The position numbers and the translations under genes are program-made. A stretch of DNA of 64,000 bases, from the NCBI GenBank assembly GCA_010356995.1, contig ML996704.1, forward strand, positions 356,404-420,403, given 5' to 3'. Below, piece after piece: positions 27,599 to 52,403 of the stretch. The notes beneath the pieces are model-generated. The model saw nothing but the letters and a program-made list of their open reading frames with translations, did no database searches and was not told the origin of the DNA. Within the stretch, counting starts at the first letter, position 1; each line of letters opens with the position of its first letter. Origin of the DNA: Trichodelitschia bisporula (Eukaryota; Ascomycota; Dothideomycetes; Phaeotrichales; Phaeotrichaceae).

Positions 27599-30500
27599 AT
27601 GGCTTCGGCGCGGTATGTAGTATCGCCTTAAACATTCCCAGCGCGACGCGACGCGCTTATATGAGCGTTTCGGCATCACTATGCTAACGGGCATTCCAAT
27701 ATCAGAATCGTGATAGACCTTTCCGAAGGAAACTATGAAGAAAGCAACGGCGTAAATGCACTTGAATCATTTAAAGAGCGCAAGCCGAGGCCAGCCGACG
27801 CTCGTCCGTTGCCTAGTCCCGCTGCATCCAGGCAGATTAGAGTCCAACAACACGGAGCAGCATCTGGACAGGATAGTAGCCTTAGTGCAGCTGCAACTGC
27901 CTCTGTGCTGCCAACAAGCAGCATATTTCGGCCCCTAGAACACTTTGACGTTGGACCTTCCATCCCGGGTCTTGGCATCTCTGCGGGTTTCAGCCCTAGT
28001 TCTAGGGTAACGAGGCAACCTTCCGCCTTCTCATCTGACTGGTTATCTGGTATCCCATCGACACCCAGCGCCTTACAACCACCGAACAATGTCGGTTGGA
28101 AGAACGATGCTTTCCGCTACAGTTTCGGCCGTTTGCCGGGGCTTCAGCTCGACGAAATCATGTCCAAGAAGCGGAAGGCCGATAGTGACCTCCCTTCGTC
28201 TCAGGACTTCCACCTCAGCAGGAGTGCGCAACCACAACCTGCATTCCATGGGCTGCCCATTATTTCACCATCTGCTCTCAGAACCTTTTCTCTGACGCGC
28301 TCTTCCAACAAATCCGCCACACCTCCAACTATCCATGAAAGCTCCAAATCCTCATCGGTGCCGGTTCCTGTGGATGGAGCCAGTGTCCTTCGGCCACCTG
28401 CGGCGTCTCAACCCTCCACATCGCCACAGCCGCCTACAGTGCCTCCGCCATCTGTAGTTCTTGAGTCCTCTGTAGGGCCACAGCCCTCTCCCAGGCTTCA
28501 GTTACTTCTAGTTCCTCAACCACATGCAGCACCTCAGCCCTCTACATCACCGCAACTGCCTACAGTCCCTCGGGAACAAGCGGTATCTCCACCACTTGGA
28601 GTTCTCCAGTCCTCTGTAGTGCCACAGTCCTCTCCCACGCTTCAGTCGCCTTTGGTTCCTCAACCACATGCAGCACCTGTGCCCTCTGCAGCGCCACAGT
28701 CTTCGGGGGGGCCTCAGTCCTCCGCAGTACCTCAGTCCTCCGCAGGGCCTCGGTCGCCTGTTGCGTCTGAGCTATCAAAACTAGCCAGAGATATAAGAGG
28801 AAGGGCCCAGTTTACTGACCTGCTAGACAAAGCATATGACGATGCTGGTGGAGTCGCATTCTCGGACCTTATCGAGAAGGATAGAACTCCTCTCAACGAT
28901 GACGATGGTGTACTCCTGCCGCTAGTGGGGCCTCAGACGGCAGTCGAGCTCCAAACGCCGGTGACGTCGGACCCTGATGCGAGAGATCCCAAACGGAGGC
29001 GTCTAGACGGCGCGCTGTCACCGCTACAGCAGCGGGCAAGCTCTGATGTGATCCTCACGGGGTTTTCGCCGTCCCCGGTTCCTGTAATGAGATCCGAGCT
29101 GTTGCGTAGCAACACTGACAACCATGGAACCAACGCAACTCCGAATGGAAGTCCCTGGAATAGTCAAGCGCCTGAATGGAACGCCCCTGCCTCCGGAATG
29201 TCGCCTTTGTCAGCGAACACTCCGGATGGTCTACCTGCGCTCTCGCGGCTGCGGAAGCGTAACCACTTGATCAGCTACCACCCCAAAGCTTCGATGCGCC
29301 AGTTCAACCCCGACCGTCTGAAGAAGTTCAAAGCGAGCACGCTCCCTCCAGCGGGTGGGGCGCACTTTACTTTTGAGGAGCAGATCATGATCGGGTTCCT
29401 TCATGAGGTGATGGGTGTGTCCTGGACTGGGATCGATGCCATCATGGGCCGCGGAATTAACTGTTGCGCTACCAAGTTTCTCCGAAGACCTAAAGGATTT
29501 AATGTTTCGGAAGTCAGACGCCAAATACATTATGACAGACATATTGAAACCATAAAATCCATCCTCGTCAAGGACATGTCCATCGCGGAGGTTATGGATG
29601 CCTTTTGCCATCGCTTGCAGGAAGGTAAACCACCTTCTGATGTCGGCCGGCGCTGGGCAAAGGCAAGCCCAGTAGCCAAAACCGGGACGCCGAACATTGA
29701 GGCACCAAGCATGGAAACCCCCGGCATTGAGACCCCAAACATGGTGACGCCGACTATCGAGGCGCCGAACGTGGAGACTCCGAATGATATAAAGGTACCT
29801 AGAGCTGCACCAGTATCTCGTATTCTTCGGCCTAGACTGGAACGGGGCACGTCGGCTTCGGCTTCGGCTTCAGCGCCCGACACCCCCAGCGCTTCTAGTC
29901 AACTGCCATCTCCGGATGCTGATGTTTCCTCGTCAGAACACACTGGACGCCACGCACTGCGAAGCCGGCACTCGTTGCGCTTGAAAAACAACACATATGC
30001 CGATGGAATGGTTCCCACGCAGCTCAAGCCGTATCTCGACTTCTTCACGAGAAAGACACTTAAAGAGGGTCTAAGCAGCATTGACTGGAGTGACGATCCC
30101 GAGGCGTGGAAAGGAACCGAACTTCATGTTCCATTCGATCCAGACGAGGCGGAGGAACTGCTTGCATGTGTCCAAGCGAGATTGCACCAACGGAAGAGAG
30201 CAGTACCGCAGAGCAACGCCAGTCCGGTCCGGCAAATCATCAGCTTGGTGCAGGACGCGACGACTGCTGAACTTTCGGACTTCGCATGGCGTGCAAAGAA
30301 CGGAGGGAAACTCAATGATCGGTCATATGCAAGCATCGAAGGCTTCCTCAAGGATGCCGCTCGCAAGCGCCCTCAGACCTCTGAAACCGCACCGCCCATT
30401 CAGCTGGCTCGAGGTGGCGTGCCGAAGACCAAAGCTCCCCTCACGACGAGATTGCTTCAACGCGAAATCTCATCCGCGGGGCCTGAGCCTGGCTCGGCTA

Positions 30501-32743
30501 GAACGGTCGCTGCGCAACTCAAAGAAATGGTTCACGATGCCATGAATCCGGTATTGAACTTTACGGGGGCATCCGGGGATGTAGGGACAGTTGCCTGGTC
30601 TCCGGATGGGCTTCAATTCGCCGCTGGTTCTGTGTGTCTGGTGGATCCCAGCAGTATGCAGTACAACCGGCCGAACAACCTCCTTCTCGGGGATATTCCG
30701 CGTAAAGCCATTCGAGAACTTCCCGAACATTCGCGGCCCCGTCCACGAACGGAAACTGGACCGAACTCGACGCGGGCTATGCAGGCAACACAAGATCCAC
30801 GGCTATTTGAAACGGTGTCTAGCGTCAGTTTCAAGGCTGACGGATCTTGCTTCTACTCCACCGGGTACGACAATGCTCTTCGCGTCTACGATGTCAGCGA
30901 GGGCACCAAGAACTGTAAGATGACTTGGTCCTATGATCACGGCGCTAAAGTCGACTTGCTTGGGGTCAGTCGGGTCAACGGACTCATTGCTACGGGATGC
31001 CATCAAACCGAGAACAGTATCCGCATCTTTCATCATGGCTCCGATGGTATCGAGCTTGATAGCCAATTCACGTCTAGGTTGGCGACCAAGTACCCCAACA
31101 AGAAATCCCACCCGTCCTGCCTTCGATGGGGGCCTCATTCCCTGACAAGCAACTTACTCCTCGCGGGATATGCCACCCAAGTGAACGATGATGTCAAGGA
31201 GACATACGGCGAGATTTGCATGTGGGACGTCGAGACGGGTCGTCCCCTCACGATGAGTCCCAGCACGGGAAATATCTTCGATTGCGCCTGGAGCCCATCT
31301 AATCGGCTGCTTGCCACTGCCAGTTCTGCTGTCTCCATCAAAGTTAACAGAGGAACACGCTCAGTTGTCAAGGTTTACTGGCCAACTGAGTCTAGGTGGT
31401 CCAGCCACGGCGTCGAGCTTGAGTGCACTGCGCTGGACATCAATGACGTTGTGTTCTGTCCACAGGAACAGCACTACGTCGCAGCTGGCGCAACCGACGG
31501 CAAGGTTTACGTCTGGGACATCCGGAGGCCCGATTACCTGCTCCATAAGTTCTCACACGGAGAGCCCCTTGTAGAGCCTGATCCGAACTTCGCACGCGAG
31601 GTCCTCGACACCGGGGTATGCTTCTGCGCTTGGGGCGATTCCCGGTCGAGGCTCCACACAGCATCGTCAGACGGCATCCTCAAAGCCTGGGACATATTCC
31701 GCTCCCCGCAAGACGCGCACATCACCAACATAGCGTCCTTCAACTCGGGCATCATGTCCGGCGCCTTCAGCTCCGACTTCTCGAGCCTTCTGATCGGCGA
31801 AGTCAACGGCTCCGTCTCCGTTCTCGAAGCTGGCGCCCCCTCCATCAAAGGCCGCGCCGTCCGCCCCTTCCGCTTCGAACCCGCCCCCACCGAACCCCCA
31901 CCTTTCCTCCCAACCACACCCGCCGAGCGCCCAACCACGCCCGTCGACTCGCTCCCCACCACGGACGACGAATCCGCACCGCAAGGCTCCACGACGCCAA
32001 AGCACTCGCCCTCCGGCCGCGCTCTCGGCGAGCACCTCGTCGCGACCAAGCAAATCGCCATCCGCTCCTTCGGCCCGAAGCGCCAAGCCGTACGTGGCCG
32101 CAAGTACACCGGCCCGTGGGACCGCGGCGCCGACGCGGGCTCGCTGCGCGCCAAGGCCGTGGTTTTCCAGCATGGGATCCGCGCGCGCCGGGCGCGCACG
32201 CCGTGCCATATCCCGCTGTGCAGGGCGTCGGTGCCGCACTTCACGGACGAGGAGGGTGATTCGGGCCGCTGGGCGGATCGCATTCCCGGTGCTTTGCGGG
32301 ACGCGGTTGCGGCTGCGGCGCGGCATGAGGGGAAGGGGGAGATGGTGCCTGGGATGCTGAGCTGTGCGCATTGCTCTGCGCCGGCGAGGCCGCGCACGGG
32401 GGATGAGGAGCAGGAGGTTTTTCCGCTGTGTGAGAGGTGTGGGTTTGCGTGTTTTCGGTGTGGGGAGAGGGTTAAGGTTGGCTTGGCGGTTGGGGGGGTG
32501 GAGTGTAAGGCTTGTGGCGTGGGGTGGCGGGCGGGGGTGCTGGGGTATGCGGTTGTGAGGGATCGGAGGGCGGAGGAAAGGGAGACGCGGATGGAGGTGG
32601 ACAGGGACGAGGATGGGACGGGGGAGGGGGGGGGGTGGAGGATGAGCCGCTACAAGGTCGATTTGGTGTCTGAACTCGAGGACTGGATGCATTCGCGCTG
32701 GGGCTCCGCTGGGGCGAGGAACTTGGCTGGGAATACTCGTTAG
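27599..32743 (+). CDS. Large WD40-repeat protein with SANT-like segment and C-terminal CxxC zinc module; candidate CUL4-DDB1 substrate receptor
   Basis: The long frame from 27706 lacks a usable ATG at its start (only GTG). A short first exon, 27599-27612 (ATG GCT TCG GCG CG), followed by a 93-nt intron with donor GTATGT, branch GCTAAC and acceptor ATCAG, joins in frame and gives MASARIVIDLSEG; total 1683 residues. Residues 200-350 are low-complexity Pro/Ser/Gln with an internal duplication sharing LVPQPHAAP. Around 557 is a SANT/Myb-like helix set (HFTFEEQIMIGFLHEVMGVSW). IETP-type repeats lie near 665-695. WD40 blades run from about 960 (VAWSPDG) to about 1380. YVWDIRR near 1275 holds the WDxR motif of DDB1-binding adaptors. 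Four CxxC pairs (CAHC, CERC, CFRC, CKAC) near 1556-1610 suggest zinc binding. It may correspond to the Raf1/DIM-9 type heterochromatin factor; that identity is a guess. Confidence 0.85.
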
Positions 32744-33578: not shown

Positions 33579-34474
33579 CTATTCCGAACCGTGAGAGTGG
33601 CCAGCATCACCCATGCCCTTCGGCGACGCACCCGCACCACCCGCCGCCTTCGGTGAAGCACCTGCACTAGAGGCACCACCCTTGGGGAATCCTAGCCGCA
33701 AGATCAGTTCCCGCGCCCATAGAAGCATCAAGAAAACTTACCACCAGCACCACCGAACCCACCGCCAGGAGCGCCACCCGCACCAGCCTTGGGGAAGCCT
33801 AGCCGCAAGATCAGTTCCCGCGCCCGTAGAAGCATCAAGAAAACTTACCACCAGCACCACCGAACCCACCGCCAGGAGCGCCACCCGCACCAGCCTTGGG
33901 GAAGCCTAGCCGCAAGATCAGTTCCCGCGCCCGTAAAAGCATCAAGAAAACGTACCACCAGCACCGCCGAACCCACCGCCCGGAGCACCACCCGCACCAC
34001 CCTTGGGGAAGCCTAGCCGCAAGATCAGTTCCAACGCCCATAGAAGTATCAAGAAAACTCACCACCAGCACCACCGCCAAACTTGCCTAGCAGAGCCGCA
34101 AGGTCAGGCGAGCCACCGCTACCCCCGGGCGCACCACCGCCGAGCTTGCCGAGCAGGGCCGCGAGATCGGGAGGGCTGCCGCCGGCGCCGCCCTTGGGGA
34201 AACCACCGGCACCGCCCATGCCACCCTTGGGGAAGCCGCCGGCACCGCCGGCACCACCCTTGGGGAAACCGCCGGCGCCGCCGCCGAACTTGCCCAGCAG
34301 AGCCGCGAGATCGGGGGAGCCGCCGGGGGCGCCGCCCGCGCCGCCCTTAGGGGAGCCGCCGGCACCGCCACCGAGCTTGCCGAGCAGGGCTGCGAGGTCG
34401 GGAGAGCCTTGGGGCTCGGCGTAGGGGGCCGCGATGACGGAGGCGACCAGCGCGGTGATGGCGAAGACCTTCAT
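33579..34474 (-). CDS. Small secreted glycine-rich repeat protein encoded by tandem exon-intron units
   Basis: Exons 34474-34063, 34012-33956, 33905-33849, 33798-33742 and 33691-33579 give 231 residues. A signal peptide (MKVFAITALVASVIAAP) starts it. Exon 1 encodes four copies of a helical motif (S/P)PDLAALLGK(L/F)GGG separated by glycine-rich GGFPKGGAGG spacers. Exons 2-4 are each 57 nt, phase 1-1, and encode the same 19-residue spacer type (FPKAGAGGAPGGGFGGAG); exons 3 and 4 are identical in DNA. The last exon ends in a His/Ser tail (GDAGHSHGSE). All four introns are 50 nt with GT(G/A)(A/C)GT-type donors and a shared CTAG acceptor. If any intron is retained, the frame hits a stop a few codons in. 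Likely a cell-surface or extracellular protein; function unknown. Confidence 0.88.
33692..34062 (-). repeat. 107-bp tandem array in which each unit is one exon plus one intron
   Basis: Introns occupy 34062-34013, 33955-33906, 33848-33799 and 33741-33692, exactly 50 nt each, with three 57-nt exons between them. Introns 3 and 4 differ at one base; introns 2 and 3 at two; intron 1 at about six from the others. Exons 3 and 4 are identical and exon 2 differs at four positions. Period 107 bp. Confidence 0.97.
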
Positions 34475-34580: not shown

Positions 34581-34588
34581 ACTTTATA
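34581..34588 (-). promoter_or_regulatory. TATA box of the glycine-rich repeat gene
   Basis: TATAAAGT on the minus strand, about 107 bp upstream of the ATG at 34474 and just 3' of the 35-bp repeat array. Confidence 0.6.
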
Positions 34589-34595
34589 GCTGGGT

Positions 34596-34700
34596 CTTCG
34601 TCCCTAAGTTGCCCTGGTTGACAGCTGAGTCTTCGTCCCTAAGTTGCCCTGGTTGACAGCTGAGTCTTCGTCCCTAAGTTGCCCTGGTTGACAGCTGATT
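34596..34700. repeat. 35-bp tandem repeat, three copies, in the promoter of the glycine-rich repeat gene
   Basis: Copies 34596-34630, 34631-34665 and 34666-34700; the first two are identical and the third differs at one base. Each contains TTGCCCTGGTTGACAGCTGA, with the palindrome CAGCTG. The array sits directly upstream of the TATA box. Confidence 0.95.
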
Positions 34701-39079: not shown

Positions 39080-42000
39080 TTACCCATCCGCCAGCTCCAC
39101 CACCCTCACGCCCCCAATCTCAAAAATCATACTCCTTCCCCAAACCGCACTCAAATTAACCTCCACCTCCGTTTCATCCCGCCCCGCCACAAACGTGCCC
39201 GTCGCGACATGTACTCTCCCCTCCTTCTCCTCGCTCCTCCACGCTGCAACCATATTCCCGTCCGCAAGACAGCTCACGCAACCCCCCTCGCCATTGATGT
39301 CAAACCGCAGCCACACGCGCGCCTCGTACCGCATCCCGGGCTTCGTGGCGATGCGCTGCCGCAGCCACACCGTCTCCACCGCACGGTACAGCACCGTGGC
39401 CACGAGTTTGTGGCTCCGGCCGCGCAGCCCGGGGCTCACGAGATGCACCTCATTATCCCCACGGGACATATCCCACCCGTCCAGGGTCCCCGACGCAAAG
39501 TCCCCATTCTGCAGCAGGCAAGTAGGCAGTGTAGGCAGGGGCGGTATGGGCGGTGAATTCGGGGGGATGGGGTGGCTCGGGAGGTTTACCTCCGAGATAC
39601 TGATGCGGATGCCGGGGTTCTTGTCGTGTAATTTGCTGAAGGAGATGGCGCGCTTGACGAAGCTGCGTACGGGATGGGGGTTAGGATTTGAGGTGGTGGT
39701 GGGGTCGGTGGATTGGTGGGGGGTGGGTAACGGACGCAGATGCCGGGCTGATGAGATGCGGCGGAGCCAGTTGGGATGCCGGGTGGGTGTCGTAGGGAGG
39801 AGGGTGGGGGCGAGAGTTGGGGGAGTGGTGGGGGGAGTGGGGAGGGGAGCGCTGACGTTGGGTGGGGCAGGGTCAGTGTCGGTTGTATCGGGCTCGGGGA
39901 GGTTGATGTCGGGGACGGGTGGGCTTTGGACGGCCTCGGGAGGCGTGGTATTGTCGTCGACCGTCGGTTCGGGGACTTCGGCATCGTCAGGTGCGGATGT
40001 TTCATGGCCCCCCTCGGTGTCCGGCTCTTGGGTTTCTCCTGGAGGCAAGTCTCGGTCGGTATTAATGCCTTCAGCCCCTTCGGCATCAATCGGCCCAGTT
40101 TGCTCTTCGGGAGCTCCCAGCTCCGGCTCCCCAGCCACCTCCTTCTCACCATCAACTTCTAGGGGCACCGGGCCGCGCACAAACGCCGGCGCCGCACCCC
40201 ACTTAGACGCAGTAAACACCGTCGTCCCATCCACCAGCACCGCCCTTACAAACGCATGCACACTCTCCACACACGGCAGCACATCAGGCTTAAACACAGC
40301 CTCATGCGCCTTACCAATCGTGACCGTTTCCACAGCCGCAGGGTCCTCGGGGTCACTGCTAGGGCTAAGACGGACGCGCCAAGTGATATTCGCCCAATCG
40401 CCATAGTTGTAGTTCTTCGCGTTGGGCAGGACGGCGGCCCAGTCGACCTTGACCTCACCGCCGGCGACGCTCGTAGCTGGTGGCCCAGAGAGGACAATCG
40501 CATCCTCGATGAACTTGCGCGCGGTTGAGAGGGCCGCTTCCGCCGCCTTGTACTGCTCCTCGGCCTCCTTGCGTTTCCTTCCAAGCGACGGTATCGGTAG
40601 TGGAATCGGCAGACCCAGAAGCAGGCCCACGACGCCCTTCGCCGCGCCGACGGCGCTGAGAGCCAGGGATGCGGCTTCTAGCGCGGCGAGGCCAGCGGCG
40701 AAGGCACCGACGCTGAGAGGGAGGGACGGGGAGATAGGCACGCTAGTGACGACAGAGAGGGCTTTAAGTGCGGTGGAGCTGAGTAAGGAAGTTTCAGCCT
40801 CGGCGAGGGAGGAGGCGTGTGCGAGGAGGTTTTTGGGAGTGACTTTGCGGCAGATGAGGCGGGAGGTGAGTTGGTTGCTGTATTTGGAGACGGATTGGAC
40901 GGCGATTATCGCGGCGAGGTCTTGTGGGTGTTGGAGGAGGGTTTTGCCGATTTCGGTGGCGGAGGATTTGATGGCGTTGCCGAGGGCGGTCCAGAGGGCG
41001 TCCTTTGTGAAGGGCGCGGGGACGGTGATGCTCAACTCGCCGAGCGCGATGGAGGCGACTTTCTTGCCTTTGACGGAGACGTCGAACGCCACCGCCGCGC
41101 GCGCCGTGACATTGACCTTCACCCCCTTCCCCCGGCCCGCCGTAAAGCTCAACTTGAAGTTAAACTTCGTCTTGACCTGCTCAAACACCAGCCCCGTCAG
41201 CTTACCACAGCTGCAGCTCCTATCGCCCTCCGACCCCTTCATAATCGCGTCCGCAAGATCGAGCAGGCCATCGCCATCCCGTGCGACTCCCCAATCTTTC
41301 AAGCCGAACCCATCACCGCTGAACGTGAACGGGATCTCCGGGTTCTTGACCCCAAACACGGAGCCCGTAAGCTTCGCCTTGCCGGCAAACTCGCCACCCT
41401 CACTCGCGCCGCCCGGCGTACAGGTGAGCTGGACTTCGCCCGCGAACCCGAAGGCGCGAACCCCGGCACGCGCACCGAACACGGCTTTCCGGCCTGTAGT
41501 GTCGATGTTGAGCCGTGGGCATAGCAGCTGCGCGAAGCCCAGGTCGAGATCATCCTCATACGTGCCGGCAAGCACGATCCCGTCCCTGCTGTCAGGTAGG
41601 TCGAGCTGCACGGTGAAGGGGGCATCGAAGAGCGAGATGCGTGCGTGGACGTGGTACCCTGGCACATATTCGAAGTCCTCGAGAGACAGCGGTTTGGAGT
41701 CGGTGTAGTAGTACAGGCGCGCGGTCTCGAGGGTCAGGGAGGGGAAGCCGGACGGCCAGGTGGGCGATTTGGGGCCTGAGGCCAGGAGCGCGCTGAAGAG
41801 GTCTGTGATCGGCAGGGGGTGGTCGAAGGTAGCGGTTAGAAGTTTAGGTTGGCCTTCGAAGAAGGTCAGGGCGCCGAGGGGGCCGCTGGCGCTATCGATG
41901 GAGCCGAGCTGCAGCCGGCCGGAGAGGATGTGGGTTTGTGTGATGGTTCCGTTGGCGGTGAGAATTGAGCCGCGGAAGGAAGGCGCGGTGAGCGAGACGT

Positions 42001-45000
42001 TGAACATCTTGCCGTTGAAGAGACCTTTGATGGCGGGGGGCGCGCGGCGAGTTGCTTGGGCGGCGGTGCTAGTGGCGGATCCGTTCGTGGAAGGCTTCAG
42101 GGGAGAGCCGTTTTGCTTCGTCGGGCCGTTGATGCCAGATTTCTCCACAGCGTCCGGCCTCTTGCCATCCGCAGCCTCAGACGACGGCAAGCCTTGTCCG
42201 GCCTCACCACCGTCCAACAGGCCCTCCGGCCTCCACGCACTAAACGTCGTGCCCCCCGGCTTGACGTACAAATCGACATCAAATGCCAGCGGCTCCTTGA
42301 CAAGCCCACTCAGCACCAATGTGCCCTGCACCGCCAGCATATCCTGTGCAGGACAATACGTGCCCCGTCCATCAAACGCCATATTCCCACTCAGCAACTC
42401 CAACCCCCGAACATCAACCTCAACCACTGAATCCACCTCCTCACTCACGAGCGCAAACGCCGTAACCCGGGGCACACTCCCCGTCTTCACCCCCAGCCTC
42501 AACGACCGCGCAAGCGGACTCTCTCCATCCAGCGCTAGCCGCGCAAAGAACCACGCCCCGCGCGCTAACCGCATATCAGGCGGAAGATCGACGAAGCCCG
42601 CCATAGCATCCATAACCCGCTGCGTGCGCTCCGGCCCCACCCCACTGAGCCCCAATTTCCCAATATCAGCCTGCAACCCCGCCAGCGTCGTTTCGAGCGC
42701 AACAACATGCACCGCCGCATCACGGACACCCAGCGGTGCAAGCCGCGGCCACAAGCCGCCCAGGTTATCCGTCGTCAGGCTCAGGGCAAAGCCGTGCTCC
42801 CCAGTCGCTGGGTCCGGTTTAGTAAGGATAACCGCCTCGCCATGCCCCGGCAGTGCGCCGAGCAGCGCAACCTGCTCAGCCGTAAAGTCCGCGTAGACCG
42901 CGAGCGTCGGCGCCGCGAATCCGAGCGGTGTGGAGCTAGCAGGAAGGATCGTCGACCATGTGCCCTTCGCGCCGAACACATCGGCCAGCGCCGTAACCTC
43001 GACGCTACCACCCTGGGTGGCTTCAACCCGCCCAACGAGCACGGTGTGCCCACGAGGATTGACTTCCAGGCGGAATTGCGCAACTAAACCGCCGGGCAGC
43101 GCAAGAGAACCCGTTAGGCACACCTCGAGAGCATCCATGGTGGCGAGATGCTTGATATGGGCGCCGATGTTGCTCAGCTTGAAAGGTACCCCGCCGCATG
43201 TGGCATCCCAGACGGACTTTCCCGTCGCGTGGATCTCGAGCGCGCGGTCTTTGGTGAATTTCGCGTCGATGGTATTTAGTGGGAGAGTAGATGGGAGGCC
43301 GAGGCCGGCGAGCGCGTCGAAGAAGGTGCTCGGGAGCGCAAGGCTGCGGATGAGATCGTGCATGTCTAGCGACTCGACGCCAAACACGCCGGCGTAATGC
43401 TCGCCGTCGGCGTCGGAGCCGAAGGAAAGCCAGAGTTCGGACGTGGCGATGCGCAGGCGGCCTTTGATGGTTGCAACGAGATCGTGCCCGCGGACGAAGG
43501 ACGCGTCCAGCGTTAGCTTGTCGAGGTTGATGTTCCCCTTTGTGAAGAGCTGGATTGTCTTTGCTGACTCGCCGACCACATCGAGCGAGTGGATATCGAG
43601 ACGGGGTAGCTCGACGCCGGGCGTGTTCTGGATCTCCAGCTGGCCGATGACTTTCTGGACTAGCATGTCGAAGTCGCCGGGTGGGAGCTTAATGTTGTGG
43701 GTGCTGATCTTGAGAGACTTGAGCAGGCTGAGAACTGACAAGGCGCCGTCTGTCTCCGGGTGGATGGCCAATGAAAGCAGTTTCGTGTCCACACCCGCCG
43801 CGAGGGGGAATCCGATCCGCACGCGCGACTTCGCCGTTTCGGACCCCAACGTGCCCAACAACTCGAGGACGGAACCCATCTTATCCGTATCGATGCCCGG
43901 TACACCCACGGCCGGTACCTCGACCGAGGGCTTGTTCTGAGACAACACGCCAGCCGCGCCATCGGGCGCATCCGGCCCAGAAGCCACACTCCCATTGGAG
44001 CTCCCCGACCCGTTCACCGGTCCAGTGAACTTAATCCTAGGCGCCCTCAGCTTAAAAACTCCCAAATTAATCCCCTCCGCCTCAGGCACATCAATATTGA
44101 ATGCTTTCACCTCCCACGTCTCCGCATCAAGCGTGGCCTCCGCGCCCTGAACTTTCAACGGGGCAAGTAGGGCCACAAGCTGCTCTGGCAGCTCCCGGTC
44201 GAGAAGCTTCGCCAGCAGTGTTGTCACGGAGATGAGTGTGCGGGGCCGGAGGGCGACAAGAATGCTGTTGTCGTTGCTGGTGTAGGTTGCTGAGGCGGCG
44301 AGGTAGAGGCTCGCCAGGGAGGCACGGATACGCGCGGTGTAGGAGTTCAGGGTGGGGCTGATGATTAGGGAGGCTTCGAGATCAGTTAGGGGTATGGGGC
44401 CGATTGTGACAGCCGCTTTTTGGAGGGTGAGGGTTGCGCTGTGGAGGGTAGCTATGGAGGTCGGGAGGGCGGGGAGAGAGAGTGTCCCGGTCGATGAAGA
44501 AGGAAGTGGGAAATCGGGAATAAAAATATCGGGAGAAGAGACCTCCGGGGAAGCGAGCACAGGAGAAGATATGCCGGGAGCAGACACCTCGGGAGCCGAA
44601 AGATGCGGCTTCGACAGGCTCGCCGCGCCGAATGAAAGCGACGCCATGGTAAGCGGAATATCGAGCAACCCGCCCACAATCGGTAAGCCGACGATTCCAT
44701 CCGTCTTCAATCCAAGCCCACCCATCAGCGCAGCAGGCGACAAGCCTCGTGGGTCGAGAATCTCCAGCGTAACTAGTCCGTCAGCTCGGTCCCTCCTCAA
44801 CGCAATGAACTTACCCGTCTTCCCAAAATTCGGCATCAGCACCGGTAAATAGACCATCTTCCCGCCGGCCTCGACTTCCAACTCCCCCCTTGCATCACAC
44901 AGCACCGTCCCCCTCACACTTTGCACCTCAAGCGCCAGTCCACGCACCCTCGCCGTCCCCGAAATCAACTCCAGAACGTCCGACGCCACGCTCGCGCGCC

Positions 45001-47137
45001 AACTCTCCACCTCCCACGCCTGCCCCACCTGCGCCATATCCAGCTTCAGCGCCCGGACATGCACATCGCGCAGCAAGCCCTCGAGGACGGGCACACCCGC
45101 CACCAGCCCCCGCACCTTGTCCGAAAACCCCAGCGCGGCCCAGAGGTCAAAGAACCCCGTCGGGCCGCTGGTGCTGGTCACAGCAAGGCGATACGCCCCC
45201 GTATCAGCGGTGGCGCTCCACTCCGCGCTCATCTCCATCGCCAGGCGTACCGGGTTCTCCCCGAGCTTGACCGCAAGCTGCACGTGCGCCGCCACCGCCC
45301 TCGCATCATCATCAAATGGCTGCAAGATTTCAACGCGCATCTCCCCAGTCTCGATCCCCTCCTCGATTCGCGGGGGTAAGTGCCCTTTCCACCCTGTCTC
45401 CCCAACGAAGGCCCAGACCCGCGTACACGCAGGCCCCTCCCCCTCCTTCTCTAGCAAAAACCCCACGCCCGTAACGCCTCCAAGTCTCCCAACACTCTTA
45501 TCCTCGAACGGAACCCGCGCCTCCAGCGCCTGCGACTTAGGCTCAAAAGCCGCGATCACATCAGCAAGCGAACTGCTCCCGCCATCGATATACACCGCCA
45601 ACCCCGTCATCTGGCTGCCTTGATACCGCGGCTCAAGCTTAATGGGAAGCCTTACGCCGTCTGCGCCGCGCAGTGCACCGCGAATCGACAGCGCCAAATC
45701 CCGGCTAGGAAGCGCGGGGTCGGTGATGTCGAGCGCGACGTGCTCGACGGAGATACCCGCGGCGCCGATGGTAACATCCGGGAAGCCGGACTCGAGGGGT
45801 GGGAGGAATAGGTGCACAGCTTTGATAACCACGCCGGTGGGCGTGAGCGCTGCGTCGACGGTTGAGGCGCTGAGGTCGGGGTGTAGGTTGAGCAGGTGGG
45901 CGAATGTGGCGAGGGTGGCGGTGAGCTTGACGATCTCGCCTTCAGGGAGGGCGTGGTGGGTGAAGAGAGATAGGGCGTCGAGGACGTGTGTTTCTGAGAC
46001 GGCGGGGCCGCGGAGACCGCAGCTTAGGAGGTAAGTCTCGAGTGAGGTGGTTAGAGGAACGGAGGCGATGGAGTGGACGTCAGTTAAGGTGCAGTCGTCG
46101 GCGAGGTGAATGGTGCTTGTGATAGTTATGTCGCCGCCTGGGGTCCATGTCAGGCTGAGATCCGCGGCGAGGACGGGTATCTCATCGTTTCCGTAGAGAA
46201 GGATCCAGTCCTGATCCGAGGGCAGGAGGGGGCGGATTAGAGCCTCGGTGATGGAGAAGACGGGGCAGTGACGGGAGAAATCCACAGCGGAGAGGGCGGT
46301 GTTGGCGGGCCAGGAGAGTAGTGCGGTGATAGGCTCGGCGTTGAAGGTAAAGCAGTCGAAGTTGGCTTGTCCGATCAGAGCCACCAGCGCGTCGCGAAAT
46401 GTGAAGCCTTCGAGCATTTCAGTGCCCATTGCCGTGCAGAAGTCCTCCAGCGTCGGGCCTTCGATGGTGATTTCGATGTCTACACTCGCTGTGTCTCTGT
46501 CGGCTTCGGCATCTTCCTCGGGCGCAGGTACGTTTTCGGGCTCTACGTCCATCTTGGGAGCAATTTCTTCAACTGTCGGAATCTGAACGTTGCGATGCTC
46601 TCCGTTGTTTTGCTCCGAAGGCTCCCGGTCCGTTTCGGCGACAGCCTCACCAGCGGTCGATATCAGAATGTCGTGAGGCCCTTCGTACTCCCCCTCATAC
46701 TCCGTAACCGTTACCTCCGGAATAAGCATCTTCTTCACCTGCATCTCCGCCTGCTCCCCCATATCCAACGGCGCCGGTAAAAACTCAAAAACCGCCGTAT
46801 GACCCTCCATCAGTGGATCAAGGCCCCCAGAATAAACCACTTCTTCACCCCTCCTGTAGCCCTTATAAAACACGCAAAGAGCGCGCTTCTCCACCCAAAG
46901 CAGCGCACCTTTCGTGCCCGAATGTTCACTCAGCTTAACCGTAGCCGACAATCCACCTTTTTCAATCTCAATCCCGTCGCCGCGATCAAGAACCGTCGTC
47001 CAGTCTGGCCTGGTGTTCAAAACTACTTCAGTAGTTACAGCGGCAAGCCGCCCGTCCTCGCCGATGTCTAAATAGAACGCGCGCACCCCGCACACGGCGC
47101 GGGCTACAACCTCCACACCTGCACCTGAAGGAGCCAT
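39080..47137 (-). CDS. Giant intronless beta-rich protein with C-terminal galactose-binding-like domain, unknown family
   Basis: A single exon of 8058 nt encodes 2685 residues; the start MAPSGAGVEVVARAV is the first ATG. No signal peptide. Residues 1-2100 are mostly alternating strands with many short amphipathic repeats of the type LxGxLxLxGxV, recalling large lipid-groove or AsmA/TamB-like beta folds, though I see no firm motif. A Ser/Pro repeat with (S/A)PE(V/I)S words lies near 835-885. Around 2130-2180 is a hydrophobic Ala/Leu/Gly stretch (LALSAVGAAKGVVGLLLGL) followed by a helical segment. An immunoglobulin-like piece (YGDWANITWRV) is near 2240, then a 190-residue acidic and Pro/Thr linker. 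Residues about 2535-2685 form a CBM4/9-type jelly roll starting NGDFASGTLDGWDMS. I do not recognise the protein as a whole. Confidence 0.85.
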   Translation of the reverse strand: MAPSGAGVEVVARAVCGVRAFYLDIGEDGRLAAVTTEVVLNTRPDWTTVLDRGDGIEIEKGGLSATVKLSEHSGTKGALLWVEKRALCVFYKGYRRGEEVVYSGGLDPLMEGHTAVFEFLPAPLDMGEQAEMQVKKMLIPEVTVTEYEGEYEGPHDILISTAGEAVAETDREPSEQNNGEHRNVQIPTVEEIAPKMDVEPENVPAPEEDAEADRDTASVDIEITIEGPTLEDFCTAMGTEMLEGFTFRDALVALIGQANFDCFTFNAEPITALLSWPANTALSAVDFSRHCPVFSITEALIRPLLPSDQDWILLYGNDEIPVLAADLSLTWTPGGDITITSTIHLADDCTLTDVHSIASVPLTTSLETYLLSCGLRGPAVSETHVLDALSLFTHHALPEGEIVKLTATLATFAHLLNLHPDLSASTVDAALTPTGVVIKAVHLFLPPLESGFPDVTIGAAGISVEHVALDITDPALPSRDLALSIRGALRGADGVRLPIKLEPRYQGSQMTGLAVYIDGGSSSLADVIAAFEPKSQALEARVPFEDKSVGRLGGVTGVGFLLEKEGEGPACTRVWAFVGETGWKGHLPPRIEEGIETGEMRVEILQPFDDDARAVAAHVQLAVKLGENPVRLAMEMSAEWSATADTGAYRLAVTSTSGPTGFFDLWAALGFSDKVRGLVAGVPVLEGLLRDVHVRALKLDMAQVGQAWEVESWRASVASDVLELISGTARVRGLALEVQSVRGTVLCDARGELEVEAGGKMVYLPVLMPNFGKTGKFIALRRDRADGLVTLEILDPRGLSPAALMGGLGLKTDGIVGLPIVGGLLDIPLTMASLSFGAASLSKPHLSAPEVSAPGISSPVLASPEVSSPDIFIPDFPLPSSSTGTLSLPALPTSIATLHSATLTLQKAAVTIGPIPLTDLEASLIISPTLNSYTARIRASLASLYLAASATYTSNDNSILVALRPRTLISVTTLLAKLLDRELPEQLVALLAPLKVQGAEATLDAETWEVKAFNIDVPEAEGINLGVFKLRAPRIKFTGPVNGSGSSNGSVASGPDAPDGAAGVLSQNKPSVEVPAVGVPGIDTDKMGSVLELLGTLGSETAKSRVRIGFPLAAGVDTKLLSLAIHPETDGALSVLSLLKSLKISTHNIKLPPGDFDMLVQKVIGQLEIQNTPGVELPRLDIHSLDVVGESAKTIQLFTKGNINLDKLTLDASFVRGHDLVATIKGRLRIATSELWLSFGSDADGEHYAGVFGVESLDMHDLIRSLALPSTFFDALAGLGLPSTLPLNTIDAKFTKDRALEIHATGKSVWDATCGGVPFKLSNIGAHIKHLATMDALEVCLTGSLALPGGLVAQFRLEVNPRGHTVLVGRVEATQGGSVEVTALADVFGAKGTWSTILPASSTPLGFAAPTLAVYADFTAEQVALLGALPGHGEAVILTKPDPATGEHGFALSLTTDNLGGLWPRLAPLGVRDAAVHVVALETTLAGLQADIGKLGLSGVGPERTQRVMDAMAGFVDLPPDMRLARGAWFFARLALDGESPLARSLRLGVKTGSVPRVTAFALVSEEVDSVVEVDVRGLELLSGNMAFDGRGTYCPAQDMLAVQGTLVLSGLVKEPLAFDVDLYVKPGGTTFSAWRPEGLLDGGEAGQGLPSSEAADGKRPDAVEKSGINGPTKQNGSPLKPSTNGSATSTAAQATRRAPPAIKGLFNGKMFNVSLTAPSFRGSILTANGTITQTHILSGRLQLGSIDSASGPLGALTFFEGQPKLLTATFDHPLPITDLFSALLASGPKSPTWPSGFPSLTLETARLYYYTDSKPLSLEDFEYVPGYHVHARISLFDAPFTVQLDLPDSRDGIVLAGTYEDDLDLGFAQLLCPRLNIDTTGRKAVFGARAGVRAFGFAGEVQLTCTPGGASEGGEFAGKAKLTGSVFGVKNPEIPFTFSGDGFGLKDWGVARDGDGLLDLADAIMKGSEGDRSCSCGKLTGLVFEQVKTKFNFKLSFTAGRGKGVKVNVTARAAVAFDVSVKGKKVASIALGELSITVPAPFTKDALWTALGNAIKSSATEIGKTLLQHPQDLAAIIAVQSVSKYSNQLTSRLICRKVTPKNLLAHASSLAEAETSLLSSTALKALSVVTSVPISPSLPLSVGAFAAGLAALEAASLALSAVGAAKGVVGLLLGLPIPLPIPSLGRKRKEAEEQYKAAEAALSTARKFIEDAIVLSGPPATSVAGGEVKVDWAAVLPNAKNYNYGDWANITWRVRLSPSSDPEDPAAVETVTIGKAHEAVFKPDVLPCVESVHAFVRAVLVDGTTVFTASKWGAAPAFVRGPVPLEVDGEKEVAGEPELGAPEEQTGPIDAEGAEGINTDRDLPPGETQEPDTEGGHETSAPDDAEVPEPTVDDNTTPPEAVQSPPVPDINLPEPDTTDTDPAPPNVSAPLPTPPTTPPTLAPTLLPTTPTRHPNWLRRISSARHLRPLPTPHQSTDPTTTSNPNPHPVRSFVKRAISFSKLHDKNPGIRISISEVNLPSHPIPPNSPPIPPLPTLPTCLLQNGDFASGTLDGWDMSRGDNEVHLVSPGLRGRSHKLVATVLYRAVETVWLRQRIATKPGMRYEARVWLRFDINGEGGCVSCLADGNMVAAWRSEEKEGRVHVATGTFVAGRDETEVEVNLSAVWGRSMIFEIGGVRVVELADG

Positions 47138-48392
47138 GTCACCTCACGCGGACGCGCATGGCGCGAAGGTGTAGATGGCTAGCTGAGCTGAGGCCAGACC
47201 GCGCAGGGCTGACCGAAATGCCGGTAAAAACTGCAGCAAAGCGAGCGCGGCGAAAAGCCAAACCACAAAACACACTCACGCGCTCAAACGAAGGAATGGG
47301 ATATCAAATGTCGTGCAAGGAACTCGGGCTAGAATCGCCTCGAACTCCTCCCCAAGTTTTATCCGCACGGTCCTCAATATTGAAGCGCGCGCCCCCTTCT
47401 CGGTCTGGATCTCGTCCTGGACCCCGCCCCTTTCCCTCCCGCGCGGCATCCCCGGTTCCCTGGTGAGGCGGCATCGCGAAGACAGGAACAGGCCAGCGAA
47501 TCGTTCTTGAAGGCCACCCCGCACGCAGCAGCCTCAATTATGCACCCCGGTACTGCAGCAGCCTCAATTTCACACCCCAGCATTCGCGCGCGCCGGAAGC
47601 GTCGCGCGCGTCGAGTGCGGGGATTGAGTGCCAGTCGCGGCAGCGCGCGGCGAGAGGTTCAGCTGAGCGGGCTTTTGTGGCGTCGCAGCGCGGGGAGGGA
47701 AGGGTGCCGGATTTCTGCGGAAGGATGAGGCCGTGAGGAATTCTCCGCTGGTAGGAAGCAGAGGAATCCTTCGCTGTTCGATCTGGCGATCTCTTCATCA
47801 AGTCTTCATCGTATTTATTGGCTCCACAAACGCTATGCGTGTCGTCAAAAGAGGCGTTTCGTAGGGCGTTCTCCTCGCCCCACGCCAAGTCATTGAATAC
47901 CCCTGAAGCGTGCAGGGCTAGCAGTGACCCGTGCCGTGTCGCGGGCCGATCCCGGTCGATTGGAGTGGCCGGATCGGGGATTGGCGAGGACGACTTCATC
48001 TGCTGATGAAAGCTTAGGCTTGAGACGTGCAATGGCAACGGTGTGAAGTAAAAGGTTGATGAAAGATGAAAAGAAGAAGAGGAGAGGAGAGAGGCGAAGC
48101 CGGACTAAACATGCATGTGTGGGTCCCTTTGTCCTTTCCTCCAAATGCGCCTTCCTTCCATCTCAGGTGTCTACACAGTTGCTCATTAATAAAGATTCAT
48201 GTTCATCACTGGAGAATGAAATTCATATCAAGTCAGATGCTCATGCCATACGCCAGAAATCCCATAACGCCCCGAATGCTCCATGATAGGAACCCCTCAC
48301 CTGCGCCTAGCCTCATGCAACGATCGTGTCCCGTAAGATATCATAACGCTCATCATCCACCCAAAAACTCCCCCATCCCACCATACTCGCCC
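47138..48392. other. Intergenic region, no gene recognised
   Basis: Promoter of the giant gene and 3' flank of the PARP-domain gene. Nothing else recognised. Confidence 0.5.
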
Positions 48393-51300
48393 TTATATTG
48401 CCCCGGACTTCAAGCTCGCAAACACACTCGCCATCGCCGGCGTCAGATGCCGCGCAACCGGCATGGACGCCGTACCCGGACACACGAAAATATATCTCAC
48501 CATAATGAGCGCCTCATCCTGAATAACATGCACCCCACTCGAAACCGCCTTCTGCTCGCCGCCGACCTCACACCCAAGCAGCACACGACACGAAGCAGGA
48601 AAGTTCATCGCACCCCAACGCTTCTCCGTCGTCCCAATCGCCGTCTTCGCATATCCCCACGCCGTCGACGGCTCCTCGGCCAGATATATGCCCTTGCCGT
48701 GGTACGCGCCGTTCGCCTGCAGCGGCGTACCGCTCATCTCGCGCAGGCCCAGCGTCAGAATCGCAAATACCCGGTCCAGCGACGTGCCGTGGAAGAGCAC
48801 GCGTGTCGGCGCTTTGCCGACTTTTTCTGCGAAGCGCTTTTCCATCTCCGGCGTCCCGTTTGCTATTAGGTATTGATGTGTCCCTGGCGGGATGCTGGGA
48901 ATGCGCAGCGGCCCAGTGGCCGGGACGATGTAGATTGGGAAGGCAAGGGCAAGGCCGCGAAGCAGGTCCGCGTAGGTGGGACCGGAACTCTGGGCGAAGG
49001 CTTGCGAGGTGAATGTGGCGTTTTGCAGGTCTGTGATCGGCGGGAGTGCGGCGATGGCGGTTTTGACGTCGCTGGGGTTGTTCACAGTGAAAGTCTCTAG
49101 GAACTTGCGGCCGTTGGGCGCACATGCAGCGCTCTGTAGTATCACCACGAGGAGGTCCAGGACGGGCGGGTGGCGCGTGAGCTTCACAAGCCAGCTCTTG
49201 GGCGTATTGAGCATGGTCATCATCGCGGCGCATTTGAAGTCAGCGCAGAGGGTTGTGTGGCGGAGGGGATGCGGATGAGGTTCTAGGCATACGGTGCAGG
49301 TAGAGCCGAGGAGGGTGATCGCCTTGGTAAGGTGCTGGTAGATGATAGCCAGCGAGGTGGCGCCTCCGCGGAGGTGCTTATATAGGGACTGGCTGAGGTG
49401 AAAGATGACGGGAGACATGCCGTCCTTTTGACAGTAGCGCTTCTTCGGCGTGATGTTGTCGACGAACACGAACTGGTACTTGTGGTTCTTGAAATGATCC
49501 TGCTGACCTTCCAGCTTCTTGTCGAAGTGAATGCAAAACCCAAAGGACACGGGGTACCTGGACACCGTGAGGCGGACGAGTACGTTCTCCGCCCCTTCCA
49601 CTTCCAGCGACTGACGCTGAAGCAACGGTAGCTTCGAGAGCGGAATTTGCAGTTCCACCTCTGATATCCCAATGCGCTCCACCACGTCAACCATTTCCAC
49701 CGGCAGTTCGCTCATGATATCGTCCAGCAGCGAGGTGTCTTCAATGCCGAGCTGCTTCAGCGCCTTCCCCACGCCTTCGGGGTCCACCGCCTTGAATGCC
49801 ATGCGCAGGCCCTCTAGATTCTGCGCTTCAGCCATCATATTTCCCAGTATGGACTGCATTTTCGCCTTGCGCGCGTCCAGAGCTGCCAGGTTGGCATTTT
49901 CGGTCTCCTCCCGGCTAATACCCAATAACGCCCCCACAGCGGCAACGGAAAGCCTATCTGTTTGACTCAGTCGCTTGGAACGCAGGTACGCGCAATGCAT
50001 AATGACGGCATAATCCCGACTCTCCATGTGAAAAAGGTCAAGAATACGCAAACAGTGGGGAGGTCCATGGTCGTGGCTCGACTTTCGAACAGCTTTGAGC
50101 GCCTCCGCTACTAATGCCGCATTGTCCCCCGAAATGGAGAGCTTGAAAAATATCCTGGCCATGACATCCCAGTGTACGGTTTTAAATCCCTTGGAAAGTG
50201 ATTGAAGTATCTGCTGAAGTGACTTTTTGAAGTTGGCCATGCCGAGGGGCCCAGCAAGAAGGCGAAACACCGGCTCACTCTTCCCCATCACGGTGAAGAG
50301 TGCTTGAACCATATCCTTATTGGGAATGAGATTCATGGTCCAGGTGTGAATCTCCACGATAGGTAGGGTTGTAATGGGAGGGACATCGCCAGAAAGGAGG
50401 TCGGCAAATAGGATGCCCATGCGCTCAACCCAAAGAAACCATAGAACAAGCGAGCGCGACTTAAACACGGTTTCTATAAACGTGATTGAATCCATGGTAT
50501 ACATTCGCTGCAGCACCACACGCCAACTGTGCTTGATGAGTTCCGGGTACTCGAATTTCCGGGTGGGAGACGTAAGGAAAAAGGCCAGATGAAAGCAAGC
50601 CAAGGCCGGCTCGTTTTCAGCTTCCATGAGGATGCTACTAAGGGATTTGTAATATCCCTCGCCGGGATTGGGTTCCTTCAGCATCTGCCCAATGCATTGC
50701 GCCACAAGCGTCAGTTCGAACTTGTCCGGTTGTTGGAGGAGGAGGGTTGCGACGTGTTTGATGTGGGCGTCGGGGTCCCTTTGGCGCCATAATTCAGTAA
50801 TCATGGCGATGATGGAGAGATCATCCGGGAGGAGAGAAGTCGGATGGATGTAGAGATGCAGTACATATGCATCGAACTTCGACCGGAGATTATGTATAGG
50901 CCCAGGAGGGAGACTCCGGATAGCGACACCAGTGTCAAAGCAGGCACGCGTATCTTCCAGCGAGGGCCATTGATCGAAAAGTCTCTGGAGCCCTTGATCG
51001 AAAAGTCTATGGGGACTGCCCGACAGTTCGGAGAGCCAGGGCGATGCTTCGACTTGCCGACGGATGTCCTGCAGGCTTGTGAGCGTACTAAGATGCCCGT
51101 TTGTCCACTCCTGGCCCTTGGACCAGAGCTGTAGCACTGCAGCCTGCCCGTTATTGACGATTCCGACCAGTCCTGCGATAATTTGCGGTTGGAAAATCTC
51201 GCGCAAGCGGAACCCTTTCCCGGATCCCGTTGCTGCGGCGAAGAAGACCATGTCGCCGAGATGGGGTAGGACATTTTTGTCTTGAGCGTCCAGAAGTCTC

Positions 51301-52403
51301 GTTACCACCCTCGTCAGCTCGGGATGCTTCATCTCGAGGCAGCATTCTGCAATATCCAGGGCACGTTCGCTCAGTGCAGCTCTCCACACCAGGAGGTAGC
51401 GAATAAGCGTCCCTTCGGAGTCGCTTCCCACAGCTGCCCGAAAAAGGACGGCTTTCATGCGTCTTATGATTTCTCGCAAATGTTGCACATCCGGGCTTGA
51501 TATTTCCAACACAAAGTTGCCATAGGTGATGGTCGTCAGTGGACTTTGCTCGAAGGAGTCCATGATGCTCTGAAGCAAGGTCGGCTTTGTGGGGTCTTTG
51601 AAGCAAGGACCGTCCAGAGCAATGATATCGCGGAAAACTTCGCGCTCTCTGTTCTCGAGGGTGTCGTAAAGCTTGATGGAGTGAATATTCGGCTTCCACG
51701 AGGCCCACGCACGCCAGCTTGGCCATTCGCTCTCCAGAATTTGTATGAGAGATATTGACGGTATTGGGCTGATTTTGGGTGTGAAGCCAATCGACAGGCA
51801 GCTGACAACATCGTGGATCACGTACAACCGGCCCGAGGTGGCGAGTTGCTCGACGTAGCTTTGGAACTCTCGACAAATGTGACGTGATAAAACTGCTGAG
51901 TGTTCGTACACCCGGGATGACATTGGTACCCCTCTTTTGAGGAGAACAAGCATGCGTTGGAAAGCGAATGGCTTGTCTGTACACATGGGAGGTAGCATGT
52001 AGAGTAGATCCCGAGCGCGCGCAGCTTCATCGGCATCTACAATAGCGGGGTGATATTTGTGAACCGAGAGAAGAATCCGAAGATATGTCGGAAGCTCGCT
52101 GAAGTATTCCGGAACAGCTTTCAATTCCATGAGGAGCAACTGGATCGCCGTTTGGGAGAGGGCATGGCAGCATGCCGCGACAGCCACATCTTTTCTGTCG
52201 AATTTCCTGATGGCAGGGAGAAGGATGTCGTCAAGTTGCACCTTGCTTGTACTCTTCTTTTGTATGTATCCGTCGGTAGTTTGCTGGACTCTCTGCCACG
52301 GAAATGCGGGGTCGGCGGGGTTGTGGCCATCTGCGATCTTTTCGATCTGTCGATGGAGCGGTTCAGCGCCTCGCAGGCAATCGAAGGAGAGGAAGAATCT
52401 CAT
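48393..52403 (-). CDS. PARP-fold ADP-ribosyltransferase with long helical N-terminus (PARP6/8/16-like)
   Basis: A single exon gives 1336 residues; start MRFFLSFDCLRG. Residues 1-900 look alpha-helical with no domain I know. Near 1035 a cysteine cluster (CTVC, then CADFKC) precedes a helical block, as in the PARP6/PARP8 group. The catalytic region, about 1150-1336, has VLFHGTS (NAD-binding His), HGKGIYLAEEPS (Tyr), and a final strand set ending ALIMVRYIFVCPG. I see no Glu at the third H-Y-E position, so mono- rather than poly-ADP-ribosylation is inferred. No BRCT, WGR or zinc-finger modules of PARP1-like fungal enzymes are present, so this is not the DNA-repair PARP. Target unknown. Confidence 0.87.
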   Translation of the reverse strand: MRFFLSFDCLRGAEPLHRQIEKIADGHNPADPAFPWQRVQQTTDGYIQKKSTSKVQLDDILLPAIRKFDRKDVAVAACCHALSQTAIQLLLMELKAVPEYFSELPTYLRILLSVHKYHPAIVDADEAARARDLLYMLPPMCTDKPFAFQRMLVLLKRGVPMSSRVYEHSAVLSRHICREFQSYVEQLATSGRLYVIHDVVSCLSIGFTPKISPIPSISLIQILESEWPSWRAWASWKPNIHSIKLYDTLENREREVFRDIIALDGPCFKDPTKPTLLQSIMDSFEQSPLTTITYGNFVLEISSPDVQHLREIIRRMKAVLFRAAVGSDSEGTLIRYLLVWRAALSERALDIAECCLEMKHPELTRVVTRLLDAQDKNVLPHLGDMVFFAAATGSGKGFRLREIFQPQIIAGLVGIVNNGQAAVLQLWSKGQEWTNGHLSTLTSLQDIRRQVEASPWLSELSGSPHRLFDQGLQRLFDQWPSLEDTRACFDTGVAIRSLPPGPIHNLRSKFDAYVLHLYIHPTSLLPDDLSIIAMITELWRQRDPDAHIKHVATLLLQQPDKFELTLVAQCIGQMLKEPNPGEGYYKSLSSILMEAENEPALACFHLAFFLTSPTRKFEYPELIKHSWRVVLQRMYTMDSITFIETVFKSRSLVLWFLWVERMGILFADLLSGDVPPITTLPIVEIHTWTMNLIPNKDMVQALFTVMGKSEPVFRLLAGPLGMANFKKSLQQILQSLSKGFKTVHWDVMARIFFKLSISGDNAALVAEALKAVRKSSHDHGPPHCLRILDLFHMESRDYAVIMHCAYLRSKRLSQTDRLSVAAVGALLGISREETENANLAALDARKAKMQSILGNMMAEAQNLEGLRMAFKAVDPEGVGKALKQLGIEDTSLLDDIMSELPVEMVDVVERIGISEVELQIPLSKLPLLQRQSLEVEGAENVLVRLTVSRYPVSFGFCIHFDKKLEGQQDHFKNHKYQFVFVDNITPKKRYCQKDGMSPVIFHLSQSLYKHLRGGATSLAIIYQHLTKAITLLGSTCTVCLEPHPHPLRHTTLCADFKCAAMMTMLNTPKSWLVKLTRHPPVLDLLVVILQSAACAPNGRKFLETFTVNNPSDVKTAIAALPPITDLQNATFTSQAFAQSSGPTYADLLRGLALAFPIYIVPATGPLRIPSIPPGTHQYLIANGTPEMEKRFAEKVGKAPTRVLFHGTSLDRVFAILTLGLREMSGTPLQANGAYHGKGIYLAEEPSTAWGYAKTAIGTTEKRWGAMNFPASCRVLLGCEVGGEQKAVSSGVHVIQDEALIMVRYIFVCPGTASMPVARHLTPAMASVFASLKSGAI

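Follow-up and report, generated by a model that had tools for sequence, protein, structure and literature searches.

A 107-bp exon-intron minisatellite in a glycine-rich gene of Trichodelitschia bisporula and a candidate source of its founding intron

A predicted Gly-rich gene of T. bisporula carries four near-identical introns of exactly 50 nt, alternating with three 57-nt exons at a spacing of exactly 107 bp. The head-to-tail repetition of an intron together with its flanking exon identifies the array as a case of intron multiplication by internal tandem duplication. For the founding intron, we moderately favor a history in which an insertion acquired its 3' end by copying an adjacent coding repeat, came to be spliced as an intron and later multiplied by tandem duplication. 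A more specific proposal, to which we give an even chance, is that the coding minisatellite of the gene supplied part of the intron. The PDLAALLG codons would have contained a latent branch site and acceptor, a templated insertion would have carried these to a Gly-Gly junction, and the exon-intron unit would then have spread as a minisatellite. If so, the source module, the empty site and the four intron copies would lie side by side in the gene.

Gene structure and the 107-bp array

Coordinates refer to the window, i.e. the whole stretch of 64,000 nt that was analyzed. The following features are distinguished:

33579..34474, minus strand: five-exon gene for a 231-residue Gly-rich protein (splice model; repeat-like protein)
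34063..34474, minus strand: exon 1, 412 nt, with the signal peptide, four PDLAALLGK modules and intronless FPKGG/SPKGG spacers
34250..34294, minus strand: intronless counterpart of spliced junction 1 (GKFGGGAGGFPKGGA), 15/15 residues and 38/45 nt
34087..34108, minus strand: fourth PDLAALLG module of exon 1, containing CTGAC and CTAG; the 3' end of the intron may derive from it
34013..34062, minus strand: intron 1, 50 nt, GTGAGT...CTGAT...TAG
33956..34012, minus strand: exon 2, 57 nt, phase 1-1
33906..33955, minus strand: intron 2, 50 nt, GTACGT...CTGAT...TAG
33849..33905, minus strand: exon 3, 57 nt, identical to exon 4
33799..33848, minus strand: intron 3, 50 nt, GTAAGT...CTGAT...TAG
33742..33798, minus strand: exon 4, 57 nt
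33692..33741, minus strand: intron 4, 50 nt, GTAAGT...CTGAT...TAG, one base from intron 3
33579..33691, minus strand: exon 5, 113 nt, with a repeat-like start (FPKGG) and the end HSHGSE-stop
33673..34076, minus strand: 107-bp minisatellite array, 3.8 units (Tandem Repeats Finder and repeat spacing)

The coding sequence begins with the ATG at 34474, and its stop codon ends at 33579. After splicing, it comprises 696 nt (231 codons and the stop) and specifies a protein with 90 Gly and 43 Ala residues. A signal peptide, MKVFAITALVASVIAA, was recognized by eye, and the Gly-rich repeat protein is probably secreted. No Pfam family was matched by the 231 residues at E up to 0.01, and no second locus of the gene was found in the organism's own genome (25.65 Mb).

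The promoter region of the gene also contains a minisatellite. A 35-bp tandem repeat at 34588-34698 (3.2 copies, 98% matches in Tandem Repeats Finder) lies directly upstream of a TATAAA box (34588-34583, minus strand). Other parts of the window hold large open frames: 1692 codons with WD40 beta-propeller matches (27665-32743, plus strand), 2687 codons from stop to stop that match no Pfam family (E up to 0.01; 39080-47143, minus strand) and 1364 codons with a PARP catalytic domain match near the end (E 1e-9; 48393-52487, minus strand).

Tandem Repeats Finder reported the array with a period of 107, 3.8 copies, 94% matches and a score of 710, the highest among its 23 rows for the window. A separate repeat search returned spacings of 107, 107 and 107. 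The array extends no further than ~14 nt into the end of exon 1 and ~20 nt into the start of exon 5. The tandem repeat spans intron-exon boundaries, as in the mirages of amphioxus. Pairs of introns differ at 1 to 7 of the 50 positions (7 for introns 1 and 2, 1 for introns 3 and 4), and exon 2 differs from the identical exons 3 and 4 at 4 of 57. When exon and intron are compared as one unit, 1 of 107 positions separates units 3 and 4, 6 separate units 2 and 3, and 7 separate units 2 and 4. A simple assembly duplication would be hard to reconcile with the array, since unit 2 and intron 1 carry differences of their own, but the number of units could be misjudged if the assembly was made from short reads.

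Each intron opens with a donor of the form GTRNGT (GTGAGT, GTACGT, GTAAGT and GTAAGT), has a CTGAT branch site whose A lies 12 nt ahead of the last G, and ends in TAG. The GT donor, the branch consensus and the AG acceptor, spaced as is typical, would place them among the U2-type spliceosomal introns. Invariant in the four copies are the last 20 positions and donor positions 1, 2, 5 and 6; the variable positions are seven (3, 4, 16, 20, 23, 29 and 30). The length was compared with a 264-kb sample, in which 20 pieces of this genome, 10 kb each, were added to the window, with the four introns at issue counted in. Here, GT..CTRAY..YAG signatures of 40-54 nt numbered 77 (24 + 33 + 20 in three bins), against 29 (6 + 14 + 9) in the reversed control. 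Given this excess, fifty nt is an ordinary intron length in this genome. The shortness of the introns and the style of the gene look like those of a filamentous fungus. We infer that the 50-nt segments are introns removed from the RNA.

All boundaries are in phase 1, all ten donor-acceptor combinations stay in frame, and the retention of intron 1, 2, 3 or 4 leads in each case to a stop after 3 residues. An earlier note on this DNA had described four near-identical 50-nt introns at 107 bp between 57-nt exons, an exon and intron amplified together, a very recent last duplication, and phase 1-1 exons with frame-neutral skipping and stops upon retention. These descriptions are borne out by the coordinates, by the period and the unit comparison, by the identity of exons 3 and 4 with introns 3 and 4 one base apart, and by the frame analysis, respectively. 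The product may also be a surface protein, as the note has it.

Candidate origin of the founding intron

Spliced junction 1 reads GKFGGGAGG^FPKGGA. The same 15 residues are encoded without interruption at 34294-34250, with 7 base differences that are all silent. The gene therefore contains one protein stretch both with and without the intron. For junctions 2, 3 and 4 the best counterparts are found at 34228-34184, with 12, 12 and 13 of 15 residues. A single gain with subsequent duplication would be the simplest history, as it requires fewer events than several exact losses.

The earlier note had also pointed to intronless equivalents in exon 1 and proposed that the intron was gained in one spacer and spread by local duplication, which the match of 15/15 residues supports. 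The 3' end of the intron resembles the PDLAALLG module and not the FPKGG spacer. The multiplication step duplicates an existing intron by a known process; a true gain would be confined to the founding intron.

The resemblance concerns the last 16 nt of the intron, from branch site to acceptor. The intron end, CTGATCTTGCGGCT followed by AG, agrees with the module nearest intron 1, CTGACCTTGCGGCTCTGCTAG, at 13 of 14 bases; a gap of 5 nt follows, and then the same AGGC. The gap could be a slip between two GCT triplets. Pairs of the four PDLAALLGK modules differ at 2-5 of 27 nt without a single residue change, and from this silent-only divergence it follows that the modules evolve as coding sequence. 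The Leu codons CTT and CTA each occur once in the whole protein, both in module copy 4, and both are mirrored in the intron.

A pattern that covers the four modules, CNGAYCTYGCRGCY, was chosen after the similarity had been seen. On both strands of the 264-kb sample it has 9 matches, namely the four modules, the four introns and one elsewhere. Both strands of the 25.65-Mb genome yield 42 matches, of which 8 lie in the gene (4 modules, 4 introns) and 34 elsewhere; read backwards, the pattern has 21 genome-wide matches, to be set against the 34 outside the gene. From these 34, about 2.5e-5 matches are expected per 50-nt intron. Among the 42 matches, CTGAYCTTGCGGCT is restricted to module copy 4 and the four introns.

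More general comparisons are less sharp. Among 3000 shuffles, 10, 27, 49 and 48 reached the local alignment score of introns 1, 2, 3 and 4 with exon 1, and 220 of 5020 window segments did so too; both are crude tests with a borderline outcome. A match of 13/14 to exon 1 was found in 347 of 52329 segments of 50 nt; among intron-like sequences it occurred in 0/93, and 12/14 in 4/93. For a 3' splice site that might derive from a duplicated exonic segment, the 13/14 nt shared with module copy 4 and a motif confined to the gene are supportive and the crude tests borderline. The shared stretch is short, and the branch consensus accounts for part of it.

The first 34 nt of the intron behave differently from its 3' end. 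No source was found for them in exon 1 (score reached by 658/2000 shuffles), nor within about 3 kb on either strand (274 and 258 of 300 shuffles). When up to 3 mismatches were allowed, a core of 25 nt from this part was found nowhere in the genome except in the four introns. A 5' splice site taken from the other copy of the duplicated exonic segment was likewise sought, and no match was better than shuffles. The model of the founding intron would therefore account for one third of its length, the 5' 34 nt having no detected source. The 25.65-Mb genome was also searched for other copies of the intron, by an exact pattern, with up to 3 mismatches and in one DNA search, from which distant relatives could escape; none was found. 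An introner or introner-like element was considered and rejected, as such elements are expected in many genes and the four copies that these searches recovered all lie in one.

The main alternative, which we regard as unlikely but deserving of attention, is that an old intron between two repeats was merely copied with its exon, and that its likeness to the module is due to chance or minor conversion. The duplication of the unit is indeed plain from the sequence, and this alternative would also sit well with the borderline outcome of the crude similarity tests and with the two thirds of the intron that match nothing found. It leaves unexplained, however, why CTGAYCTTGCGGCT is confined to this gene among the 42 genome-wide matches, and why the copy nearest intron 1, copy 4, should both match best and possess the sole CTT and CTA codons. 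The identity of spliced junction 1 with an intronless stretch (15/15 residues) speaks against it as well.

The favored history, insertion followed by tandem duplication, would proceed in five steps. A coding minisatellite of PDLAALLGK modules and Gly-Gly-FPKGG spacers would have come first, as the silent divergence suggests. Next, as the intronless counterpart suggests, ~50 nt would have been inserted at the Gly-Gly junction after the fourth module. For the 3' end of this insertion, the PDLAALLG module a short way upstream would have served as template, with a slip of 5 nt and a rejoining at the common GGC. The copying would have delivered a ready branch site (CTGAY) and acceptor (CTAG); the similarity itself is observed, and the route may have been break repair or template switching. 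The other 34 nt, GT donor included, would be filler with no traced source. Subsequently, the insertion would have been spliced in phase 1, leaving the protein unchanged. Finally, as the sequences of the units show, tandem duplication of exon and intron led to four introns, with a recent last step.

Splicing, protein length and an intron-like exonic segment

Short introns with strong sites favor constitutive removal, and intron definition over exon skipping. The four introns are today probably removed constitutively. No significant RNA structure was found in introns 1-4 (z-scores of 0.32, -1.16, -0.54 and -1.02). Their centroid folds have a small hairpin in common with the branch A in its loop; the fold energies are not significant, 118, 23, 55 and 33 of 200 shuffles folding at least as well. 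Each 57-nt exon further contains an in-frame alternative donor, GTGGGT (33976, 33869 and 33762, minus strand), 21 nt upstream of the real donor, and its use would remove 7 residues.

A regulated length switch, in which exon skipping or copy-number change varies the secreted protein, would be compatible with any of the histories, and is considered improbable. Symmetric repeat exons and the ten in-frame donor-acceptor combinations are what such a switch would need, yet the symmetry is already explained by tandem duplication alone, and the strong donors and short introns favor intron definition. The earlier suggestion that DNA copy number and splicing could vary the length of the protein found no support here. 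At the level of DNA, each unit gained or lost would change the protein by 19 residues without a frameshift, and unequal exchange could alter the unit number. Natural length variation of the protein would be expected.

Exon 1 itself contains a segment of 48 nt, GTGCGC..CTGAC..CTAG (34134-34087, minus strand), that is in phase 1 at both ends and has no stop. It is possibly an in-frame exonic intron (exitron-like) with a weak donor. The descent of the whole intron from this segment was considered and rejected, since its 5' part aligns no better than shuffles.

The segment also bears on a further alternative, intronization, whereby a coding linker and PDLAALL segment became an intron through a new donor, with later decay and loss of frame and without any insertion. 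We judge this to be quite improbable. Exon 1 does retain the 48-nt phase 1-1 segment without a stop, the intron ends on the same Gly phase, and among 14 exon-1 GT-AG segments of 40-61 nt the two that end there (51 and 48 nt) align best to intron 1. When the interior of the 48-nt segment is shuffled, however, it aligns as well to introns 1-4 in 2832, 2566, 2926 and 2862 of 3000 cases, and the 5' parts of segment and introns are therefore not alike. Moreover, PDLAALLG is followed by K in all four coding modules and the intron by F-P-K, and the spliced protein lacks nothing relative to the intronless stretch. For these reasons, an insertion is preferred over the conversion of coding sequence into an intron.

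It is very improbable that the 50-nt segments are unspliced and the gene a decayed coding minisatellite or a wrong model. In favor of this reading, the protein has no Pfam match and a single locus in the genome. Against it, each of the four segments combines a donor, a branch site and an acceptor and is of a usual intron length for this genome, their last 20 positions are invariant, and the spliced frame stays open through exon 5 and gives a repeat-like protein.

Comparison with known systems

No published description of such an array in a fungus was found among the matches listed (titles and abstract openings, subscription journals being mostly outside), which is weak evidence. The Balbiani ring 3 gene of Chironomus encodes a secretory protein. 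The SP7 effectors of arbuscular mycorrhizal fungi were considered as a case of one intron per repeat; in the passages listed, a conserved intron stands before the first repeat (PMC11333574), and SP7 was rejected as a precedent. The AGL Gly/Pro-rich repeat proteins, with one or two introns near the signal sequences (PMC8786786), and schistosome micro-exon genes were considered and set aside. Balbiani ring 3, like the present gene, is a repeat gene with many introns, its internal repetition being split by 38 of them, but the repeats of that 11-kb gene have diverged (PMC4192438), whereas the units here are near-identical.

The closest known systems are the mirages of amphioxus, the multiplication of introns by internal duplication, and intron gain through tandem duplication. 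Mirages are minisatellites across splice boundaries, as observed here. Length instability between haplotypes is reported for them, and they are proposed as a model of intron gain (PMC3087553). In mirages, the repeats consist of boundary pieces, and regular splicing of the mRNA is reported in spite of them (PMC3087553). In the present gene, read from a single assembly, complete introns alternate with complete in-frame exons, and all of them are apparently used.

Duplication of an existing intron is a known process. In TOUCH3 of Arabidopsis, a complete intron and its flanking exon were duplicated in tandem within one gene, as in the present case (PMC4974935). The present array differs in that its four introns belong to a 107-bp minisatellite and that the same gene offers a candidate source of the founding intron. 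The tandem genomic duplication model of intron gain, attributed to Rogers, takes splice signals from a nearby exonic or boundary copy (PMC4974935). Fission yeast genes with 24-nt repeats and AGGC sites are counted with this model (PMC3629103), and the module here likewise has AG|GC. However, no exonic source was found for the donor half, which departs from a simple AGGT duplication.

In human segmental duplications, internal tandem repeats activate cryptic splice sites and form new introns from repeat sequence (PMC2812944). There, the expansion makes the intron, whereas here the intron itself is the repeated item. Introns from the repair of double-strand breaks in Daphnia are insertions at a single site, accompanied by short direct repeats or by homology (PMC4202315), as would apply here; in the present gene, a coding repeat of the gene itself may have supplied part of the insert, and the intron was subsequently multiplied.

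For many gained introns no source can be traced; in fission yeast, 2 of 62 gains could be given a definite one (PMC3629103). Within 900 bases, the present gene offers four intron copies together with a candidate source and an intronless counterpart, and the steps of intron birth and multiplication are therefore testable in one gene. The array is a readable case of how an intron may arise and then multiply, and it outlines how the number of introns in genes for repetitive secreted proteins could rise with the frame unharmed. The founding step would resemble tandem-duplication gain and the human repeat-driven introns, for the acceptor half only.
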